This document shows, one piece after another, positions 33,120 through 61,148 of a stretch of 64,000 nt of DNA. Below the pieces are notes generated by a model. It was not told the origin of the DNA, did not search any database, and was given only the letters and a program-made list of their open reading frames with translations. Every line of letters begins with the position of its first letter. Position 1 is the stretch's first letter. Position numbers and translations under genes: made by a program. Source of the DNA: a virus; the IMG/VR virus record IMGVR_UViG_3300046513_000343, positions 1-64,000 of that record; one strand, written 5' to 3'.

Positions 33120-33368
33120 TTAACGCTCCCAACCCTCGGGGCGGTTTAGGAAGCCACCACGTTCGAGCGGGTTGCCGACATAGTTCTCGCCGTCGTCGGT
33201 GTTCTGCGGCAGGTAGTGCGGCACCTTCGCGGGGTCGGCCACCTTGGCGTAGCCCGCTTTCAAAGCCGTCAGCGACGGGTCGTTGCCGTCACCGGAACCG
33301 CCGCTGTAGCTGGTGTCGGACTCTTTGAGTGCAGCGCTGGTGTTCAGTTCGGCGTTCTCGATGGTCAT
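33120..33368 (-). CDS. Small hypothetical protein
   Basis: 82 residues: MTIENAELNTSAALKESDTS then KVADPAKVPHYLPQNTDDG. An AAGGAGG site with ideal spacing precedes the ATG. Hydrophilic. First gene of a tight cluster that continues to the glycosyltransferase fusion. No family recognised. Confidence 0.75.
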   Translation of the reverse strand: MTIENAELNTSAALKESDTSYSGGSGDGNDPSLTALKAGYAKVADPAKVPHYLPQNTDDGENYVGNPLERGGFLNRPEGWER

Positions 33369-34286: not shown

Positions 34287-34316
34287 AGGGTCCGTTTGAT
34301 TTCACTGGAAATGCTT

Positions 34317-34336
34317 GTTTCAGCAAACGCTGAAAC
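34317..34336. promoter_or_regulatory. Inverted repeat upstream of the TylF-like gene
   Basis: GTTTCAGC-AAAC-GCTGAAAC, an 8-bp perfect stem with a 4-base loop, 31 bases before the TylF-like start and downstream of the coat-gene terminator. It may be an operator or RNA hairpin. No clear promoter boxes were found around it. Confidence 0.35.
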
Positions 34337-34379
34337 CCCTGCTTTTGGTGAAACTGGCAAGGGTTGAAATTGGGGTAAG

Positions 34380-34403
34380 AAAAAAGACCCGCCGAAGCGG
34401 GCC
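34380..34403 (-). terminator. Rho-independent terminator after the coat gene
   Basis: Minus-strand stem CCCGC/GCGGG with the very stable TTCG loop, then TC and six T. It follows the coat stop by 56 bases and should cap the abundant coat mRNA. Confidence 0.9.
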
Positions 34404-34458
34404 TTTCGGGGTAGTCCGAACCCTGGTACGGATTATAGGATGGTTGTCAAAAAGACAA

Positions 34459-35238
34459 CTATGCGGCAGAATCCCAGCGAATGATGCGCGATTGCGCAGC
34501 GGCGGTCTGAACCAGGCCGAAACCGCCCATGTAGTACCAGGCCACACCACGCTGGCGACCGTAATCGCCAGGGATCATGCCGCGCATTTCCTCGGGGATC
34601 ACGATGCCCTCGGCGACGGTGTCGTTGCCGAAGAAGTAGGCCCAGTTCGACAGGCCGTTGGTGAACGCGGCCTTGGCGATGTTGGTCTGCTCGACGAAGC
34701 GCACCGACTCGTAGCGGCCGATCTCGCCGTTCAAGATCATCTGGAAACCGGCGTCCACGTACTGGTGGACAGCTTCCAGGTCGTTCTTCAACTGGCGGAA
34801 CGTGGTCGGGTGGGCCAGGCTGATGTAGTCATCCTGGATATAGGGCGGGACGTTGCGCTCTTTCATCACGTCCACGATGGCCTTCACGTGATTTTTGCCC
34901 AAACTCACATTATTCGTCGCCGTCGCAGTGCCGTTGGTGGTCAACGTCACGGCGGAAGTCGAGGTGCCGCCGGTCGGCACCACGCGCAGCGGGGTCAGGC
35001 GGAACTGCGCCTCGGCCATGATGTCGAAGGCCTTCTTGGCGTCGTTCTTCAAGACCTTGCTGATGATCTCCTTGACCGGCTGTTCCGAGAGGTCGTCCAG
35101 CTTGGAGCTGTACGGCACGCTGTTGCCGGCCTCGGTGATGGTCATGGTGCCCTGGGTAATTACGAAGTTCGTGGTTGGCATCGCGGTGCCTTCCGTGAGC
35201 GTCGTTCCTTGGGTCGCTACATCGCTGTAAACGTTCCA
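34459..35238 (-). CDS. Major capsid protein, exon 3 (259 codons plus stop)
   Basis: Begins in frame with WNVYSDVATQGTTLTEG and ends IIRWDSAA. The fold-type features (long central helix region, YIQDDYISLAHPTTFRQL, RYESVRFVEQTNI) fit HK97-fold coat proteins of the N4-gp56/podovirus type. Joined to exons 1 and 2 it gives a 314-residue coat protein, directly after the scaffold gene as expected. Reading exon 3 alone from an upstream GTG would give a coat lacking its N-terminal arm and without a ribosome site. Splicing is inferred from sequence, but the join restores a continuous, family-like N-terminus. Confidence 0.88.
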   Translation of the reverse strand, partial: WNVYSDVATQGTTLTEGTAMPTTNFVITQGTMTITEAGNSVPYSSKLDDLSEQPVKEIISKVLKNDAKKAFDIMAEAQFRLTPLRVVPTGGTSTSAVTLTTNGTATATNNVSLGKNHVKAIVDVMKERNVPPYIQDDYISLAHPTTFRQLKNDLEAVHQYVDAGFQMILNGEIGRYESVRFVEQTNIAKAAFTNGLSNWAYFFGNDTVAEGIVIPEEMRGMIPGDYGRQRGVAWYYMGGFGLVQTAAAQSRIIRWDSAA

Positions 35239-35467
35239 CACACTGTTACTTGATAACCTGTCGCTGCATTGACAGGCGGGTGGTCATTTCTGCCACCTCA
35301 CGGCGTTCATTGGGTTATATGCCGTGGTCGGACTATCGCATCCCCGTTGCCGGGGCCAACTCGCTTAGTCTCTCAGGCTGCACAGCCTTGCGGCTTGCTT
35401 GCCCCTTCTTTCCCGCTGCCGGGGGTTGAAGTCAATCAGAGTCGGTTTTAATTCCACCAGGTCGTTA
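35239..35467 (-). ncRNA. Group I intron 2 in the major capsid gene
   Basis: 229 nucleotides, no ORF. The 5' exon end AUUCCAU pairs with the internal guide GUGGAAU (35457-35451), giving P1 with the required U.G at the splice site. P7 strands are GACTA (35370-35366, within GAGAGACTAAGCG) and TAGTC (35335-35331, within GATAGTCCG). The intron ends in G (35239) before TGG of exon 3. Stop codons in frame exclude plain translation through it. Confidence 0.88.
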
Positions 35468-35596
35468 ATGGAATGCGTCACCCATGCCTTTACCCTGGAC
35501 AGCTGCGTCCTTGATATCAGCAAATTGACGGAATTTTGTGAGTGGCTGGACGGCCATACGCAAAACTTTTGAGAGGTTGGGGGACCACATGTATCC
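35468..35596 (-). CDS. Major capsid protein, exon 2 (43 codons)
   Basis: Encodes GYMWSPNLSKVLRMAVQPL followed by TKFRQFADIKDAA and GKGMGDAFH. Flanked on both sides by group I introns and in frame with both neighbours. No start codon or ribosome site of its own. It supplies the conserved coat N-terminal region between exon 1 (ending NSLG) and exon 3 (starting WNVYSD). Confidence 0.88.
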
Positions 35597-35866
35597 CATT
35601 TTGTTCAGCAGAGATCGCTACACGCTGCTCGCCGGTTCCCACTCCGGCTGCTTGCCATTTCTGGCAAGATCAGACTATTTCATCGTCCCTTGGGACGTTG
35701 CGCACTTCGGGGCGCTTGCCCCTACTCCCACCTACGGGATAGTCGTTGAACCTTCCGGCTTGCGCCGGCTTGGCTGCAGATTGTCTGCGCCTTAACGCGG
35801 TCAGAGTTCCCTGCAATTCACGCAATTATCAGTCGCCGATTACTCGGTGACGGGGCAGTGTTATTT
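35597..35866 (-). ncRNA. Group I intron 1 in the major capsid gene
   Basis: 270 nucleotides, no ORF. Classic core elements are legible on the minus strand: AATTGCAGGGAA (P4 side), CAATCTGCAGCCAAGCC (Q), GGTTCAACGACTATCC (R) and GATGAAATAGTCTGATC (S). P7 pairs GACTAT (35744-35739) with ATAGTC (35678-35673). P1 pairs exon GGGU with GCCC (35856-35853), U.G at the splice site. The last base is G (35597). Several in-frame stops begin at its second codon. Confidence 0.93.
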
Positions 35867-35902
35867 ACCCAGGCTGTTGGTGAGCCAGACTTGACCTGCC
35901 AT
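35867..35902 (-). CDS. Major capsid protein, exon 1 (12 codons)
   Basis: MAGQVWLTNSLG, starting 8 bases behind TTAGGAG. Without splicing translation would stop after one more codon (AAA TAA). Joined to exon 2 it reads NSLGGYMWSPNLSKVLR, a typical coat-protein N-terminus in this phage type (recollection). The exon ends in T, as group I 5' splice sites require. Confidence 0.88.
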
Positions 35903-35937
35903 GATATGTACTCCTAAAAGAGAAAGATGGACTCCAC

Positions 35938-36999
35938 CTATCCCCCGGCGCGCGCCGCCTTCATCGCCGCGATCACATCGCTGGGATTTTCGGGCTGCTG
36001 CTCGGTGGTGGTGGTTTTGGTGTTGACCGAGGCGACGTTGTCGATCGATCGTTTTTGCTCCAGCTTTGCCGTTCGTGCGGAGGACGTGGTTGGGGCAGGT
36101 TCGGCGGGACGGCCCGCTGCGGTACTCGCGGCCCAGCCGAATTTGTTGGCCATGTCCTTGCTGACGGTATCCAGTGCAGTGAAGAAGTCACTGCCGTTCT
36201 GCTCGCGCAGGCGGTGGATTTTGGTCAGGGCCAGGGCCTCCATATCGGGGTCGCTGTACAGCTCGGGATAGTCGCGCTGGTTCTGCGCTAATGCACTCTC
36301 GACTGCGAACTTCTGCTGCACTTGCTGCGTGACGGCGTTGGCGATCTGGTCAATGTCGAGGGTGGGCGCAGCCGCCGTGGCGGGTTGCTGCCGTCCTCCA
36401 ATGACCTTCTGCAGCGCGGTCAGCGCGTTTTCCTCGTCGCCCTCAAACAGGGCCTTGAGAAATTCCTTGCCTGACTCGTCCACCGGCGGGGTGTCGGTCG
36501 TGGCGGGGTTCGGGGTGGCGGTGGTTGCCGCCTGCTGGGCGCGCAGCTGGGCTTCCTGCTGTTCCAGCAACAGGCGCTGGGCCTGCGCTTCCTGGGCTTC
36601 GCGCAACAGGCGCGTGGCCTCGTTCAGGCGCTTGTCGGCGCTGCTGTTCTTCTGGTACTGGCGCACCACTTCATCGAGCGGCACATCGGTCTCGACGCCG
36701 TCGACCTTGACGCGCACCGTGGCCGGCGCCTCGGTCACGGCGGCGGGCGGGTCTGCCAGCTGCGCGGCCAGTTGCTCGGCCGGCGCCGGTGCTGGTTCAG
36801 GCTCGGCGGGTTCATCGACCGGCAGTTCGTAGCCGTTCGATTCGGCCATCTGCTGCTGGTGGCGGGTTTCCAGCGCTTCCATGGCCAGCTCGCGGGGCGA
36901 CTTCGGGACTTCTGCTGCTTCGGTGGTGGTGGGCGTTGCCGGGGTGGCTGGGGTAGCGGGTGCGGCGGTGTCTTGCACGTCCGTTGGGATAGCGCTCAT
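35938..36999 (-). CDS. Scaffolding protein
   Basis: 353 residues, start MSAIPTDVQDTAAPATPATP behind AGGAG (6-base spacing). Acidic, Pro/Ala/Thr-rich ends and a long central coiled coil (about 100-170, LREAQEAQAQRLLLEQQEAQ), no globular domain. This composition and its position between portal-side genes and the coat gene are typical for internal scaffolds. VRVKVDGVETDVPLDEVVRQ near residue 100 is a recurrent motif in such scaffolds. The C-terminal region around NPSDVIAAMKAARAGG may bind coat. Confidence 0.85.
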   Translation of the reverse strand: MSAIPTDVQDTAAPATPATPATPTTTEAAEVPKSPRELAMEALETRHQQQMAESNGYELPVDEPAEPEPAPAPAEQLAAQLADPPAAVTEAPATVRVKVDGVETDVPLDEVVRQYQKNSSADKRLNEATRLLREAQEAQAQRLLLEQQEAQLRAQQAATTATPNPATTDTPPVDESGKEFLKALFEGDEENALTALQKVIGGRQQPATAAAPTLDIDQIANAVTQQVQQKFAVESALAQNQRDYPELYSDPDMEALALTKIHRLREQNGSDFFTALDTVSKDMANKFGWAASTAAGRPAEPAPTTSSARTAKLEQKRSIDNVASVNTKTTTTEQQPENPSDVIAAMKAARAGG

Positions 37000-40553: not shown

Positions 40554-43399
40554 TGCGCACCGCCGTACAGCTGCACCAGCCGGTCGAAGAAGTCAGCCCC
40601 CAGCGCGGCGACGACATCGGCGGGCACGATGAAGTCACCCTGCGCCATGCCGAGTGGTTGAGCGCTGCTTGGCAGCGGCCCCTGCGCGCCGCCGCTCGGC
40701 TGGTGGAACTGCGCCACCAGCTTGTCGAAGAAGTCGCGCCCCAGCGCCGCCACGACAGCGGCCGGAATGTGGTACTCGCCGTTCGACACCGCCAGCGGCT
40801 GGCCATTGGCCTGCGCCGCAATCGAGTCGGAGGTGCCGCTGCCGGGTCCGGCGATCAGGCCGCCGTTGGCCAGCCGCCCGTTGTTGAAGGCCGACCCGGA
40901 CAGCAGGTCGCGCGTCTGCGAATACGCCATCGCATCGTGCAGCGGGCTGTTGTTGAGCGCGTTCGGGGCCAGCCCCAGCGGAGCCAGGTTGTAGCTGGCC
41001 AGGTTGTCCGGCTCGCCCTCGGCGTTGGTGAACTCGCCGCCGCGTTGCAAGGTGTTGATGTAGTCGCCCTGGCTGTTGAACTGGGTCGGGTGGATCACCT
41101 GTTGCGCCGGGCGGGCCGCCCGCTGTTCGCTGGCCATGGCGGCATATTGCAAGTGTTGCCGCTGCTGGTCGGTCAGGCCGTCGTAGCCCACCATCTGCTC
41201 GATCAGGCCGCCGTCGGCGTAGGCTGCCTGCGCAATCGAGTCGGGGCGGGTGGTCTCGATGCCGTGCCGCTCGCCGATGCCCGGCGTGGCCGGTCCGGCC
41301 GGGCGCAGGGTGGTCGATGGCGGCGGCAGCGGTGGTGCGCTGCCATCGCCCGGCGTGAACACCATGCCGGTACGCTTGTTGGTGACCTCCTTGATGCCGA
41401 GATTGGCGTCCGGTAGGCCCGGTTGCGGGAAATTCGGGTCCACACCCGGCGGTGTCGGTGGCGTGTAGCCCGCCGCCTTCATCAACACGTCGGCAATCGG
41501 CGCCACCGCAGGCACGGCGGCGATCACTTCCGCCGTCTGCATGGCCGAGAACTGCGCCTCGGTGCCCTGCTTGACTGCGTTGGCGTTCTGCACCTTGTCC
41601 TTGACGCCCATGGACGCGATCTCGGCGTCGATCTTGCGCACCGTGGCGTCGATGATCTTCGGGTCCATCTTGGCGTCCAGCGCCTGCTGCAGCTGGTCGA
41701 TGGTGGCCTGCATCTGTTTCAGCTGCGGGTCCTCGTTCTGCATGTCGAAGAAGCGCGAACCGTCTTTGTAGCCGAGCTTGCCGAACAATTCCTTAATGAC
41801 TTCCTCGACCTTCAGGCCGAGGCGCATCAGGGAACCGTCGGAGAGCATGTCGCGCAGCGCGGTCATGCCGCTAATGAACTGTTTCACCTGGTCGGTCGGG
41901 TTGGTCGCGCCCATGCCGACATTCACATTCAGGGTGAACTCCTGCATCAGCATGTCGTCGGTGACTTGATCGACGCCGAACTTCTGCGCCAGCTGCGCCG
42001 CTTCGCCGCACAGGCCGACCAGCGTTTCGTCGGTCTCGTAGAACTGTTCCAGCAAGACGATCTGGCGCAGCACCGGCTCGACCCAGGTTTCCACGAACGT
42101 GCGCAGCTGGTAGCTGGACACCTGATTGGCGTTGGTGTCGAGCAGCTTCATGCCGCCCACGGTCTCGTTCAACTTCCTGTTCGACTGCACCGACGCCCCG
42201 CTGAACGCACCGGCCATGTCGTCGAAGTCCAGGTTCAGCACTTCCTGCTCCTTGTAGCTGGAGCCGGTGACGTCGTTGAACTCGACCACCTTGACGTCGT
42301 CTACGTCCTGCATCAGCGTCACCGAGCCCGGCACGTTGCGCGTGACGCTGCGGATATCCACTTGCTTGTTGCGCCGCGCGAAGTACCTTTTGTTCATCGC
42401 CAGCTTGACGTTGTCGATGCGCTGGTTGGCCACCTCGTTGATCTCGGCCTGCACGTCGCGCGTCAGGCGCGGCACCGAACTCGGGTAGGTCTTGTGCGTC
42501 TCGATGACGCACGAGCCGATCACGTAGGGCCGCTTGCCATGGAAGTAGCGCTGTTCCAGCGGCAGCGGCTCCGACAGCAGGTGTTCGCAGCCCAGCGTGT
42601 AGTACACGTAATCCGCGTCGTCCATGCTGACGATGTTCTTATGCACCCACACGATGTTGAAGGCGTTGTTGGCCTGCTGCTGGCTTTTGCTGTCCATGCG
42701 CTGGCCTTCGCGCTGCATGCGGATGGTGTCGCCGTAGCCCTTGGTGGCCGACAGGATGACCGCGTCCGGCAGCGTCTTCCACTTCGCCTCGCCGGTCTTC
42801 GGGTCCGGCGTGTTCATGCGCGCCTTGACTTCGCCCAGGTACATCGGGATCAGCTCGATCAGGTAGGGGCTGGTGCCGACCGGATCGGTCCAGCTCGCGC
42901 CTGGATCGAAGCGCAGGTTCTCGATGGGGATCAGGCGCACCTGCGGGCGGTCCAGCTTCTTCTTCTCGTTGTATTCCCAATACTGGTAGCTGGCCACCAC
43001 GCCCACCGTCTGCGCGTCCTGATAGGCACCGACCAGCGTCAGGAACCACGGTATCGACTTGGTCAGGCGGTACTGCAGCAGCTCGGCCATGACGGCGGCA
43101 CTGGCCTGCTGCAGCGGGTCGTTGTCGTTCTCGGCGGCGATCTGCACCACGTCCTGGGTGGCGAAGAAGGCCTCGGCGGCCACCGCCTCGTTCTTCCTGA
43201 TGGTGGCGCGCGTCTTGGGGCGGAACAAACGACTACGGCTCTTGTCGGCCAGATACTTGGAGCCGACCGGGTGCTGCCCCTGCGACTGGCGCAAGTCGGC
43301 CTCGATCTGCTGACGGATCGAGGCGTCGAAGTAGCTGGTGGACGCGGTGTAGGCGTCGCGCGCCAGCGTCAGCCAGTCGGGAGCGGTGTTGGTCATCAT
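40550..43399 (-). CDS. Portal (head-tail connector) protein with C-terminal extension
   Basis: 949 residues. Start MMTNTAPDWLTLARDAYTAS overlaps the upstream TGA. The body shows portal features: SRSRLFRPKTRATIRKNEA, GVVASYQYWEYNEKKKLDRP with RLIPIENLRFDPGA, long stem helices and GASVQSNRKLNETVGGMK. The C-terminal 200 residues are an extension with two repeats (VPADVVAALGADFFDRLV and IPAAVVAALGRDFFDKLV) and GPGSGTSDSIAAQANGQPLA, also seen in other virion proteins. The dodecameric ring is the packaging gate. Longer than typical portals because of the extension. Confidence 0.88.
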   Translation of the reverse strand: MMTNTAPDWLTLARDAYTASTSYFDASIRQQIEADLRQSQGQHPVGSKYLADKSRSRLFRPKTRATIRKNEAVAAEAFFATQDVVQIAAENDNDPLQQASAAVMAELLQYRLTKSIPWFLTLVGAYQDAQTVGVVASYQYWEYNEKKKLDRPQVRLIPIENLRFDPGASWTDPVGTSPYLIELIPMYLGEVKARMNTPDPKTGEAKWKTLPDAVILSATKGYGDTIRMQREGQRMDSKSQQQANNAFNIVWVHKNIVSMDDADYVYYTLGCEHLLSEPLPLEQRYFHGKRPYVIGSCVIETHKTYPSSVPRLTRDVQAEINEVANQRIDNVKLAMNKRYFARRNKQVDIRSVTRNVPGSVTLMQDVDDVKVVEFNDVTGSSYKEQEVLNLDFDDMAGAFSGASVQSNRKLNETVGGMKLLDTNANQVSSYQLRTFVETWVEPVLRQIVLLEQFYETDETLVGLCGEAAQLAQKFGVDQVTDDMLMQEFTLNVNVGMGATNPTDQVKQFISGMTALRDMLSDGSLMRLGLKVEEVIKELFGKLGYKDGSRFFDMQNEDPQLKQMQATIDQLQQALDAKMDPKIIDATVRKIDAEIASMGVKDKVQNANAVKQGTEAQFSAMQTAEVIAAVPAVAPIADVLMKAAGYTPPTPPGVDPNFPQPGLPDANLGIKEVTNKRTGMVFTPGDGSAPPLPPPSTTLRPAGPATPGIGERHGIETTRPDSIAQAAYADGGLIEQMVGYDGLTDQQRQHLQYAAMASEQRAARPAQQVIHPTQFNSQGDYINTLQRGGEFTNAEGEPDNLASYNLAPLGLAPNALNNSPLHDAMAYSQTRDLLSGSAFNNGRLANGGLIAGPGSGTSDSIAAQANGQPLAVSNGEYHIPAAVVAALGRDFFDKLVAQFHQPSGGAQGPLPSSAQPLGMAQGDFIVPADVVAALGADFFDRLVQLYGGAQ

Positions 43400-43752
43400 G
43401 TGTCGAATGTGAATTCGCCCTTGAAATCGGTTTTCAGGTCGGCGTACTGCTGTTCGTTGAAGCGGCCAGCCTGCAGGCGGTAGCGCTCCAGCAGCTCGCC
43501 CCCGGCGCGGATCACGTCGGCCTTGAAGGCACTGGCGCTGTAGATATCGGGAATCTTGATGACAAAGCCCATGTTCCCCGACAGCAGCAGGTTGCGGATG
43601 ATGCACAGCCCCGTCTTCGAGTCCGCCGACACCGCCCACAAGTGCGGCGCGGGGTAGTGCGCCACCAGCGCATCGGCCATGGTCTTGGCCATCAGGTGGT
43701 CATTTGCCGTGGTGACGGCGGTCTCGTCCAGGCCGTTGAGCAGTCGTGTCAT
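43396..43752 (-). CDS. Hypothetical protein upstream of portal
   Basis: 118 residues: MTRLLNGLDETAVTTANDHL ... GEFTFDT, mixed alpha/beta with a central strand LCIIRNLLLSGNMGFVIKI. The stop overlaps the portal ATG. Weak ribosome site (GAGAACC). No family recognised. Confidence 0.7.
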   Translation of the reverse strand: MTRLLNGLDETAVTTANDHLMAKTMADALVAHYPAPHLWAVSADSKTGLCIIRNLLLSGNMGFVIKIPDIYSASAFKADVIRAGGELLERYRLQAGRFNEQQYADLKTDFKGEFTFDT

Positions 43753-43758
43753 AGGTTC

Positions 43759-43944
43759 TCAGTCGTCGTACTGGTCTGGTTCGGTCTCGGATTGGATCAA
43801 GCGCGCTTTCTCGCTCTCCGACAGCCACTGGTATTGCACCCAGCTGTAGTAGTGGCGGATCGCTTCCGGCAGCGCGTCGTACTCGGCGCGTGCCTGATCG
43901 CGCTGTTCGTCCATGGCCTCCTGGCGGGTGCGCGGGAAACTCAT
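43759..43944 (-). CDS. Small hypothetical protein
   Basis: 61 residues: MSFPRTRQEAMDEQRDQARA, then YYSWVQYQWLSESEKARLIQ. The ATG overlaps the preceding TGA. Highly charged helix pair. One of a row of tiny genes between terminase and portal. Confidence 0.7.
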   Translation of the reverse strand: MSFPRTRQEAMDEQRDQARAEYDALPEAIRHYYSWVQYQWLSESEKARLIQSETEPDQYDD

Positions 43945-44162
43945 GGCGTGCCTGCGTCGGCGGCTACGTCGCCGATGAAGCGGAACGACTCGATGGTCCC
44001 GATCTCGCCGCGCAGCGGTTCCAGGCTGGGCAGATTGGCATCGGCGCGCTGGGCGTAGCGCTGGCGGCTGCGTAGCATCAGGTACTGGCCGCGCGGCGTC
44101 ATGTCGAACAGGTCGGCACCGCGCCAGCAGCGGCGCGATATCTGCCAAGTCAGGTAGGGCAT
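43941..44162 (-). CDS. Small basic hypothetical protein
   Basis: 73 residues: MPYLTWQISRRCWRGADLFD, then GQYLMLRSRQRYAQRAD. GAAGGAG lies 7 bases before this ATG, which I prefer to an upstream TTG. Coupled to the next gene by ATGA. Unknown. Confidence 0.7.
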   Translation of the reverse strand: MPYLTWQISRRCWRGADLFDMTPRGQYLMLRSRQRYAQRADANLPSLEPLRGEIGTIESFRFIGDVAADAGTP

Positions 44163-44173
44163 GGGCGGCTCCT

Positions 44174-44356
44174 TCAAGGTGGCGGTGGGTCGTCGTCCAG
44201 CGGGCGCGGGTCGTACAGCGAGTTGTCGGTGCGCGTGCGTCCGTTGCTGAAGGTGTAGGTGCCGCCCGGCGAGGGCGTGTTCGCTTCCGGGTCGGCCAGT
44301 CCGACTTCGTTGCTCCAGAGCTGGGTGGTGAAGCTGGGGATGGTCGGATCAGGCAT
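44174..44356 (-). CDS. Small hypothetical protein
   Basis: 60 residues: MPDPTIPSFTTQLWSNEVGL, then GGTYTFSNGRTRTDNSLYDP and a DDDPPPP tail. AAAGGAGG 5-6 bases upstream decides the start. Unknown, no motif recognised. Confidence 0.7.
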   Translation of the reverse strand: MPDPTIPSFTTQLWSNEVGLADPEANTPSPGGTYTFSNGRTRTDNSLYDPRPLDDDPPPP

Positions 44357-44357
44357 G

Positions 44358-44618
44358 TCAGCCTCCTTTAAAGCCGCGCCCCTGGTGCTTGCTCGACGCG
44401 GGCACATGGTTGTTGGCGGCGTTGTGGGTATCGGTGCGCACCACCCCGCGCGGCGTGGCCACGCTGGGCACCAGACGCTGGCTGGCGGCCACCGGCGGGC
44501 GCGCCATCGGCGAGGGCGCGGGCATGGGCGCTGGCGGTGGCGGTGCGGACTGGACCGGCAGCGGTGGCGGCGGGCCTTGAACTGGCATGGGCGGCAGGGG
44601 CGCTTTCAACTTGGACAT
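44358..44618 (-). CDS. Small proline-rich protein
   Basis: 86 residues: MSKLKAPLPPMPVQGPPPPL and further Pro/Ala runs, ending HQGRGFKGG. Probably disordered. An in-frame ATG four codons earlier is possible but has a poorer site. Role unknown. Confidence 0.65.
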   Translation of the reverse strand: MSKLKAPLPPMPVQGPPPPLPVQSAPPPPAPMPAPSPMARPPVAASQRLVPSVATPRGVVRTDTHNAANNHVPASSKHQGRGFKGG

Positions 44619-44633
44619 GGCGGGCATCCTCGG

Positions 44634-44900
44634 TTATAGGTACTGCACTTCATTGCGGCAGGTAATGAGCCGGGGCGCGCTGGCCTGCACGGTGAACACC
44701 AGCTCGATGCCGTGGAACTGTCCGTGCAGGCCGTGCGCGATCTGGTCCTGATAGAAACGTGGTTCGCTGTACAGGTCCGGCTTGAGCGCCGGGTGCAGCT
44801 CGAAGCGGCGCGGCTTGCGGCCCTGGTAGGTCTTGATGTGCTGGTGCAGTGCGTGTTCGAGCATGTGCGTCAGACCGCACGCCAGTTCTGGTAGTTCCAT
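44634..44900 (-). CDS. Hypothetical protein
   Basis: 88 residues: MELPELACGLTHMLEHALHQ then FELHPALKPDLYSEPRFYQD and HGIELVFTVQASAPRLITC. His-rich helix and a beta strand; GGAGA about 10 bases before the ATG. No family recognised. Confidence 0.7.
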   Translation of the reverse strand: MELPELACGLTHMLEHALHQHIKTYQGRKPRRFELHPALKPDLYSEPRFYQDQIAHGLHGQFHGIELVFTVQASAPRLITCRNEVQYL

Positions 44901-59895: not shown

Positions 59896-60900
59896 CTACT
59901 CTACTGGAGCGCCCTCGCTGGTGCGTTTTTTTGCCTTGCCCGCCAGCCGCGCCGCCACCCACTCAGCGCTCTGTTTTTTGCCGAGCTTGGCTGCCGACAG
60001 TTTGGCGCGGTGTTCTGGCGTAAGTACCTTACCCTTGTTTGCCTTGCCCAAGTTGGCCAGGTGCTCTGCGGTTTTAACCCTGCCCTTGAGCTTCGCCGAT
60101 ATTTGCGCTCGCGTTGCCACCGAAATGACCTGCCCCTTGTGCGCTTCGGATAACTTGGCGCAGAACTCGGCGCTCATTATCATATTCTTGTTCCATGGGG
60201 TCGCCGGTGGGCTTGGCAGCTTCGGCGGTGGGGGTGGCAACATCGCCAGCTTGCGCGCACGGTTCGCCGCTTGCGTTGCGAGCCTTTTGGTGACCTGCTC
60301 TGGCGGCTGCTTCTTGCCAATTTTTGCCGCCGCAAGACGAAATCTGGTTTCAGGCGACACCGTGCGGCCTTTGGCGTTTGAATTGCCCATGCCAGCTTCG
60401 CTCAACCGCTTTTTCGTTTCATCCGAGTGGTGGGACAGTTGCTCTTTTTTTGCCTTGGAGATTGCCGCCCCACGCTCTGGCGGATAGGGGCCACGCTTCT
60501 TGCCTTTTTGCCCGGCACCGATATTTGCCCGCCACTCTGCTGACATCACGCGGCCCGTTAAGGACTTGCTGATATTGGCACGATGTTCTGGTGAATTTGT
60601 CATGCCTAACCGGCTACCGGCCGTCGCCGTCATGTTGTACCCCGATGCCCAGGCATCGAAACCGTCAATCGCGCGCTGCTCGTAGAACAGCAAGTCCTTC
60701 TTCTCGCAGCAGAACAAGATCACAAACACGAATGTATCCTTGCCGTACTTGATCCACGCTCGTTGCAGCTTGCTGCTGTGGTGGCAATTAGTATTGAGTT
60801 CGTGCCTATGCTTTATGAACCGCTTAGAGAAATGCACAGCGCTACCGACATACCGCTTGCCGTTGCTGGTATTAATGATTGCGTACACACCGGATTTCAT
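59896..60900 (-). CDS. GIY-YIG homing endonuclease with NUMOD3 repeats
   Basis: 334 residues. N-terminal GIY-YIG domain: GVYAIINTSNGKRYVGSAVH (GVY and YVG), then helix FIKHRHELN and WIKYGKDTFVF. From residue 140 onwards NUMOD3-type repeats (SPEHRANISKSLTGRVMSAE; TAEHLANLGKANKGKVLTPE), basic DNA-contact modules as in I-TevI-like enzymes. GAGGTG precedes the ATG. It is bracketed by terminators and has no intron around it, so it is a free-standing mobile gene. Potential partner of the coat introns. Confidence 0.9.
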   Translation of the reverse strand: MKSGVYAIINTSNGKRYVGSAVHFSKRFIKHRHELNTNCHHSSKLQRAWIKYGKDTFVFVILFCCEKKDLLFYEQRAIDGFDAWASGYNMTATAGSRLGMTNSPEHRANISKSLTGRVMSAEWRANIGAGQKGKKRGPYPPERGAAISKAKKEQLSHHSDETKKRLSEAGMGNSNAKGRTVSPETRFRLAAAKIGKKQPPEQVTKRLATQAANRARKLAMLPPPPPKLPSPPATPWNKNMIMSAEFCAKLSEAHKGQVISVATRAQISAKLKGRVKTAEHLANLGKANKGKVLTPEHRAKLSAAKLGKKQSAEWVAARLAGKAKKRTSEGAPVE

Positions 60901-60924
60901 TTTCACCTCGCGGTCGATGTGTAC

Positions 60925-60930
60925 ATTGTA
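60925..60930 (-). promoter_or_regulatory. Putative -10 box of the endonuclease
   Basis: TACAAT on the minus strand, 24 bases before the ATG and just after the upstream terminator. No convincing -35. Confidence 0.3.
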
Positions 60931-60943
60931 TTGCCTGGATTCC

Positions 60944-60970
60944 AAAAAAAAAGCCCGCGCGAGGCGGGCT
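60944..60970 (-). terminator. Rho-independent terminator upstream of the endonuclease
   Basis: Minus-strand stem AGCCCGC/GCGGGCT with a 5-base loop, then nine T. It insulates the endonuclease from the upstream operon. Confidence 0.85.
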
Positions 60971-60995
60971 GAACGTGGTGAACGTGGTGTCAGTC

Positions 60996-61148
60996 TCAGC
61001 GCGAGCCTGGCGGGGAATTGTTGGGCAGCAGCCACCAGCCGAGCTGGCGGCGAATTTCCACCGGCGTGCCCGGTGGCGTGGGCGCTTTAGCGCGCTCCTG
61101 CAGGTAGTGGCGGACAGCTTCTTTCGTCGGCGGGATCACGGTCGGCAT
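60996..61148 (-). CDS. Small hypothetical protein
   Basis: 50 residues: MPTVIPPTKEAVRHYLQERA, then RRQLGWWLLPNNSPPGSR. CAGGAGG with ideal spacing before ATG. Pro-rich and basic. Likely a virion minor or assembly protein; unknown. Confidence 0.7.
   Translation of the reverse strand: MPTVIPPTKEAVRHYLQERAKAPTPPGTPVEIRRQLGWWLLPNNSPPGSR

Follow-up and report, generated by a model that had tools for sequence, protein, structure and literature searches.

Two group I introns of different families in a phage coat gene, probably gained together through one short exchange tract

The coat gene in a 64,000-nucleotide stretch of viral DNA (positions 1 to 64,000 of IMG/VR record IMGVR_UViG_3300046513_000343; hereafter the window) is divided into three exons by two inserts, which are very probably self-splicing group I introns of different families that were gained jointly through a single recombination tract. 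The gene lies on the minus strand. Exon 1 (35867-35902; 36 nt, 12 codons, ending in CUGGGU), delimited by alignment with L004, an intronless homologue on a related contig, is followed by intron 1 (35597-35866; 270 nt, family A), exon 2 (35468-35596; 129 nt, 43 codons, ending in AUUCCAU), intron 2 (35239-35467; 229 nt, family B) and exon 3 (34459-35238; 780 nt, 259 codons plus the stop), whose product matches the major head protein family phrog_1357 (E 1.1e-17). An earlier note on this DNA had described coding pieces of 12, 43 and 259 codons split by 270 and 229 bases, and these lengths are exact on the minus strand. Read directly and rebuilt, the joined exons comprise 945 nt and encode 314 aa with no internal stops. 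The last base is U in each upstream exon and G in each intron, as had been noticed before. The second codon of intron 1 is an in-frame stop, as is the first in-frame codon of intron 2; an intein reading of both inserts was rejected because of these stops.

The fit of the exons is exact. The coat protein of L004, encoded without interruption, and the joined protein of the window share 100% identity over residues 1-314, which bears out the earlier prediction of a 314-residue spliced coat with an intact N-terminus. Between the two coding sequences there are 37 differences in 945 nt, all of them silent, and 26 of the 37 fall in exons 1 and 2. Viral contigs were scanned with the exon 3 protein, and among the best 80 of 272 relatives (L004-L083) the coat aligns in one piece to the joined protein in 73 (4 of them without the first residues), so that the alignment proposed in the earlier note shows a full-length match to intronless homologues. 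In the other seven (L005, L006, L012, L025, L027, L028 and L062) introns cut the coat gene. When a marine relative served as the query instead, the best 80 of 327 loci are each tabulated as a single matching segment, a few being cut at contig ends; this is a reading of the table only. A broken gene, in which exons 1 and 2 are debris and a shorter coat begins at exon 3, would agree with the location of exon 3 inside a 260-aa open frame with a GTG start, but is very unlikely given that the 26 differences from L004 in exons 1 and 2 are all silent, that intronless relatives keep the same N-terminus, and that the same two introns are found at the same sites in L005 and L006 (two contigs, one allele). 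Introns hide coat genes from annotation: a gene call made on exon 3 alone would drop exons 1 and 2, and the window's gene could be called as a truncated coat of 260 aa that begins at a false start. As the records were assembled from metagenomes, introns of another phage might have been misjoined into the coat gene during assembly; this is extremely improbable, since L005 and L006 carry both introns at identical positions, with an intron divergence of about 1-2%, and since the frame closes exactly at the insert boundaries.

Intron 1 is recognised as a group I intron by Rfam. It matches RF00028 at 35651-35876 (model positions 1-253) with 75.9 bits and an E value of 1.7e-17 over the window, the gathering score being 50, and it is the single match at gathering thresholds when the whole window is searched with cmscan; no Rfam group II match reaches gathering in the window. 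The P1 helix of this family A intron, with a U.G pair at the splice site, was read by eye only. In phage records no match covers 80% of the intron's length, and the longest extends over 39% with 73-75% identity. No endonuclease ORF lies within intron 1, where the longest ORF wholly inside is 51 aa, nor within intron 2, where it is 60 aa (ORFs of at least 40 aa listed).

For intron 2, an Rfam search of 34300-36100 with relaxed filters finds nothing at E<=1; the RF00028 check put forward in the earlier note was therefore positive for intron 1 and negative for intron 2. The P1 pairing AUUCCAU/GUGGAAU and the P7 pairing GACUA/UAGUC given in that note can both be read as stated. The assignment of intron 2 draws on covariation among intron 2 and its relatives, nine family B introns without an ORF in all, for which the structure was drawn by hand and the pairs were then counted. 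Both partners change at 29 of the 51 pairs in this alignment, compared with 18.0 +/- 2.3 in shuffled and at most 14 in slid controls; by helix, 6 of 7 pairs covary in P3, 5 of 5 in P8 and 5 of 6 in P9.2, while in P7 one of the five pairs covaries, four are invariant and every cell is paired. A covariance model built from these introns (R1) scores 236.9 bits on intron 2 at 35239-35475, a value partly reflecting its training on intron 2 itself. Over 84 sources (the window, L004-L083 and three phage records) the model recovers at E<=0.1 only coat introns, the phage introns of L002 and L192, and short pieces of family A. In a larger alignment of 138 introns, which was fitted to R1 and so leans towards the structure, 43 of 45 pairs covary and 90.5% of cells are paired, compared with at most 45.8% when slid; with the same leaning it supports the P3, P8 and P9 pairings, all seven P1 pairs covary, and U.G is the commonest pair at the splice site (89 of 138). 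The family B guide also tracks its target, with GUGGAAY at site 165 and GCGGAAY at site 105 (coat CDS numbering). Judged by this covariation, intron 2 is a group I intron despite lacking an Rfam match, and the claim of two ORF-less group I introns in the coat gene is the best reading, by RF00028 for intron 1 and by covariation for intron 2. Translational bypassing, in which the ribosome skips the inserts and the RNA keeps them, would also be compatible with the early in-frame stops in both inserts and the intact joined frame. It has a negligible probability in view of the group I covariation, which includes P1 and P8, the terminal G, the U.G pair at the splice site and the RF00028 match on intron 1.

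We infer from these structures that both introns are active in splicing. In the late transcript, each would pair its guide with the end of the preceding exon to form P1 with its U.G pair, guanosine would be used for the cut at the exon end, and the exons would be joined as the intron is released. Splicing would restore the mRNA for the 314-residue coat.

Among the close relatives, the two families occupy four insertion points, which were mapped against intronless genes to CDS positions 36, 105, 165 and 879. Site 36 is occupied in the window, L005, L006, L012 and L025; site 105 in L012, L027 and L062; site 165 in the window, L005, L006, L025 and L028; and site 879 in L025, L028 and L111. Three introns are thus present in the coat gene of L025, and L005 and L006 hold one allele with both introns at the same nucleotides as in the window. 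Family A is found at sites 36 and 879, which share YUGGGU|GG, and its introns at these two sites are 69-73% identical over about 260 nt; family B is found at sites 105 and 165, which share only RUUCCRU before the junction. More distant relatives have inserts, seen in translations only, near site 36 (L087, L098), near site 105 (L086, L091, L095) and at site 165, where L090 carries one of its two inserts. The site ends in T in 15 of 15 occupied and 104 of 297 unoccupied cells across 78 coat genes, with per-site Fisher P values of 0.015, 0.24, 0.007 and 0.036 that come from related alleles, L005 and L006 being the same one. The association of T with occupancy is supportive only, as the alleles are related and the per-site values weak.

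The introns of the window lie in a short imported tract on the minus strand, which spans at least 35149-35882 and has its true edges within 35128-35932. It was delimited by comparing the window site by site with intronless L004 and with L006, which carries both introns, at two-way informative sites. Between nt 21 and 255 the window agrees with L006 at 27 of 30 such sites and with L004 at 3, five more sites being unique or three-way. Outside these limits the agreement is with L004, at 65 of 69 sites for nt 276-949 (L006 at 4) and at 388 of 396 for -2350 to -29 (L006 at 8). The distances follow the same pattern: inside the tract, 0.034 between the window and L006 and 0.136 between the window and L004; over nt 276-870, 0.103 and 0.005, respectively. 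The introns of the window and L006 (the allele on the other contig) differ by about 2% for intron 1 and about 1% for intron 2, which is in line with the divergence of the tract. This is clear evidence for the recent acquisition of both introns together, and most likely an L004-like intronless allele received a short exon tract with both introns from an L006-like donor. As exchange can run in either direction, both inserts could be group I introns that the window kept and L004 lost by exchange with an intronless allele. This is unlikely, though less so than the alternatives above, given that, inside the tract, each of the 19 further intronless genes in the comparison is closer to L004 than to the window, and that outside it they are almost equally near to both. 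The same comparison makes the window the most likely recipient; the 19 genes are related rather than independent tests, and their kinship overstates the support.

Under the favoured reading, in which the window gained the pair, a single short recombination tract from a relative with introns would have brought in both at once, the exchange being either homing-type break repair or ordinary recombination. Co-conversion of flanking exons would be expected to produce such a tract, whose pattern is in that respect consistent with a homing-type origin of the exchange. Further mosaic joints are present in the neighbourhood, the window being L006-like beyond about +2150 from the coat start and unlike both L004 and L006 beyond about -2500, so the tract may have arisen by ordinary recombination. 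In alignment columns, the joints lie approximately at window positions 33250 and 38400. Alleles with and without introns that differ by one short tract provide a natural test of the movement of endonuclease-less introns.

Putative endonuclease ORFs are present in other introns of the group. The introns of L027 (768 nt), L028 (754 nt) and L062 (721 nt), at sites 105 and 165, bear ORFs that all match phrog_5046, 'HNH endonuclease' (E 1.4e-8 to 1.1e-12), and are putative endonucleases; they give no match in Pfam, and their GIIDGEG motif is one that we take to be LAGLIDADG-like. Among 13 records searched, phrog_5046 is matched only in that of L028; the records of the window, L004 and L006 have none, and those of the window and L006 have no HNH_3. 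An endonuclease acting from elsewhere was rejected because both phrog_5046 and HNH_3 are absent from the window's record. The endonuclease-less introns may descend from endonuclease-bearing ones; the long introns of L027 and L028 align with intron 2 of the window over the 3' domain only, and that of L062 over a 14-nt stretch, so the ORF-bearing and ORF-less forms are not one deletion apart. At 59896-61035 on the minus strand the window encodes a 379-aa ORF with an N-terminal GIY-YIG domain (PF01541, 35.9 bits) and repeats that resemble NUMOD motifs, a probable free-standing homing endonuclease. A GIY-YIG match is also present in the contig of intronless L004, and hence this gene does not track the introns.

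We tentatively suggest, while regarding it as somewhat improbable, that highly transcribed coat genes act as landing grounds in which a group I intron spreads to further sites of the same gene, copying itself by reverse splicing at the RNA level. If so, the window would display two steps, namely spread within the gene and the subsequent movement of the finished pair in one exchange. Families A and B are each found at two sites with little in common apart from the guide-pairing stretch (YUGGGU|GG at 36 and 879; RUUCCRU| at 105 and 165), a two-family, two-site pattern which makes ectopic group I spread in protein genes testable. In a tree of 137 family B introns, with ORF-bearing ones left out, the endonuclease-less introns of the window's coat group form one clade, and the site-105 intron of L012 joins the site-165 introns with a support of 0.756; it is 75-78% identical to them and at most 71% identical to others. 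Introns of the same locus are closer than under shuffled labels (mean distance 1.03 versus 1.29 +/- 0.05, with 0 of 2000 shuffles as low), a signal that kinship among the phages sampled can also produce. The nearest neighbour is a same-locus intron for only 8 of the 67 introns in multi-intron loci, where shuffling gives about 0.7, and most copies therefore look acquired from elsewhere. Any working intron needs a P1 target, so shared targets do not prove reverse splicing, and mobility by this route is without direct experimental evidence according to a 2014 review, as far as its available text goes (PMC3984707).

Introns in phage capsid genes have precedents, and the accounts cited here are taken from the available parts of the papers. 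The major capsid gene of mycobacteriophage LittleE has a probable group I intron, with splicing confirmed by RT-PCR and protein sequence (PMC3706429). Like the introns of the window it interrupts a phage major capsid gene and is absent from relatives; unlike them it is a single intron of about 820 bp with an opposite-strand LAGLIDADG-like frame, in a different phage group (PMC3706429). The same paper cites a capsid-gene intron in lactococcal phage Tuc2009, which is similar to the window in its location. In crAss-like phages one MCP ORF is in five fragments, and three of the four segments between them code for domains that are characteristic of group I introns (PMC7886860). That gene resembles the window's in having multiple intervening segments; the earlier view that two introns in a coat gene are unusual must accordingly be qualified, since more than one intron per phage major capsid gene has this precedent. 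The crAss-like introns were found through intron-encoded proteins, and the part of the paper at hand describes neither an endonuclease-less pair nor an exchange tract (PMC7886860). In the Bastillevirinae, splicing has been shown and a small exon between two introns is known in another phage gene; unlike those of the window these introns lie in other genes, and the word "capsid" is absent from the text as available (PMC11878797). Single coat introns and a five-piece coat ORF are therefore already published, and the window adds a further, well-supported case. Searches of the open-licence literature gave no description of a pair of endonuclease-less introns in a coat gene, or of an exchange tract carrying one.

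Introns of family B are common among phage contigs, often in genes for major head proteins. A search of viral contigs with the 3'-domain motif gave 26 stretches, and one with the core motif at least 119, with another 36 in genome contigs, of which 15 match R1 at E<=1e-5. At 20 other loci with R1 matches, Rfam scores stay below gathering in all 20, and since the family is common, it is probable that similar genes have been misannotated. The threshold of RF00028 itself is reached by two matches of R1 in other records. Of nine proteins scanned beside introns with the 3'-domain motif, the window's excluded, seven have matches among major head families, one is matched by a DNA repair exonuclease and one has no match. 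For the longest frame beside the intron at 111 loci, a tally of PHROG matches (25 of 83 families among the matches listed) gives the major head families phrog_1357 (27), phrog_283 (16), phrog_9953 (8) and phrog_1328 (2), a frame being able to match more than one, together with ribonucleotide reductase phrog_367 (8), tape measure phrog_991 (7) and portal phrog_156 (4). Several coat genes hold more introns than that of the window. The record behind L101 has three family B introns in one coat gene, whose joined peptide matches phrog_1357 (E 9.7e-40). In the record behind L108 (3300021495_000006, about 41588-44900, minus strand) one rebuilt coat gene has six: five are R1 matches, and the sixth is an insert with an ORF that scores weakly with R1 (23.3 bits) and below threshold with RF00028. 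The peptide joined from this gene matches phrog_1357 (E 3.4e-58), with the boundaries of one intron ambiguous and another junction set as X. Two of these six introns hold ORFs that resemble LAGLIDADG endonucleases by eye. Six and five R1 matches lie in and around the coat pieces of records G035 and G037, respectively.

Family B introns are also present in phage genome records and in other genes. In L002 (Podoviridae sp. ctn9Y15, MW202674.1; 2685-4200) a P22-like coat gene is split by a family B intron that scores 160.3 bits with R1, L002 being in the training set of the model. The locus is like the window in having a family B coat-gene intron, and unlike it in that one intron was found and the annotation gives two coat ORFs separated by a hypothetical protein. 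In L085, L093, L097 and L104 a family B intron lies in a gene that resembles a tail protein by eye, the short L085 exon having no PHROG match. In Roseobacter phage CRP-118 (L192; 2479-2707) such an intron lies between two CDSs annotated as ribonucleotide reductase, which are probably one split gene.
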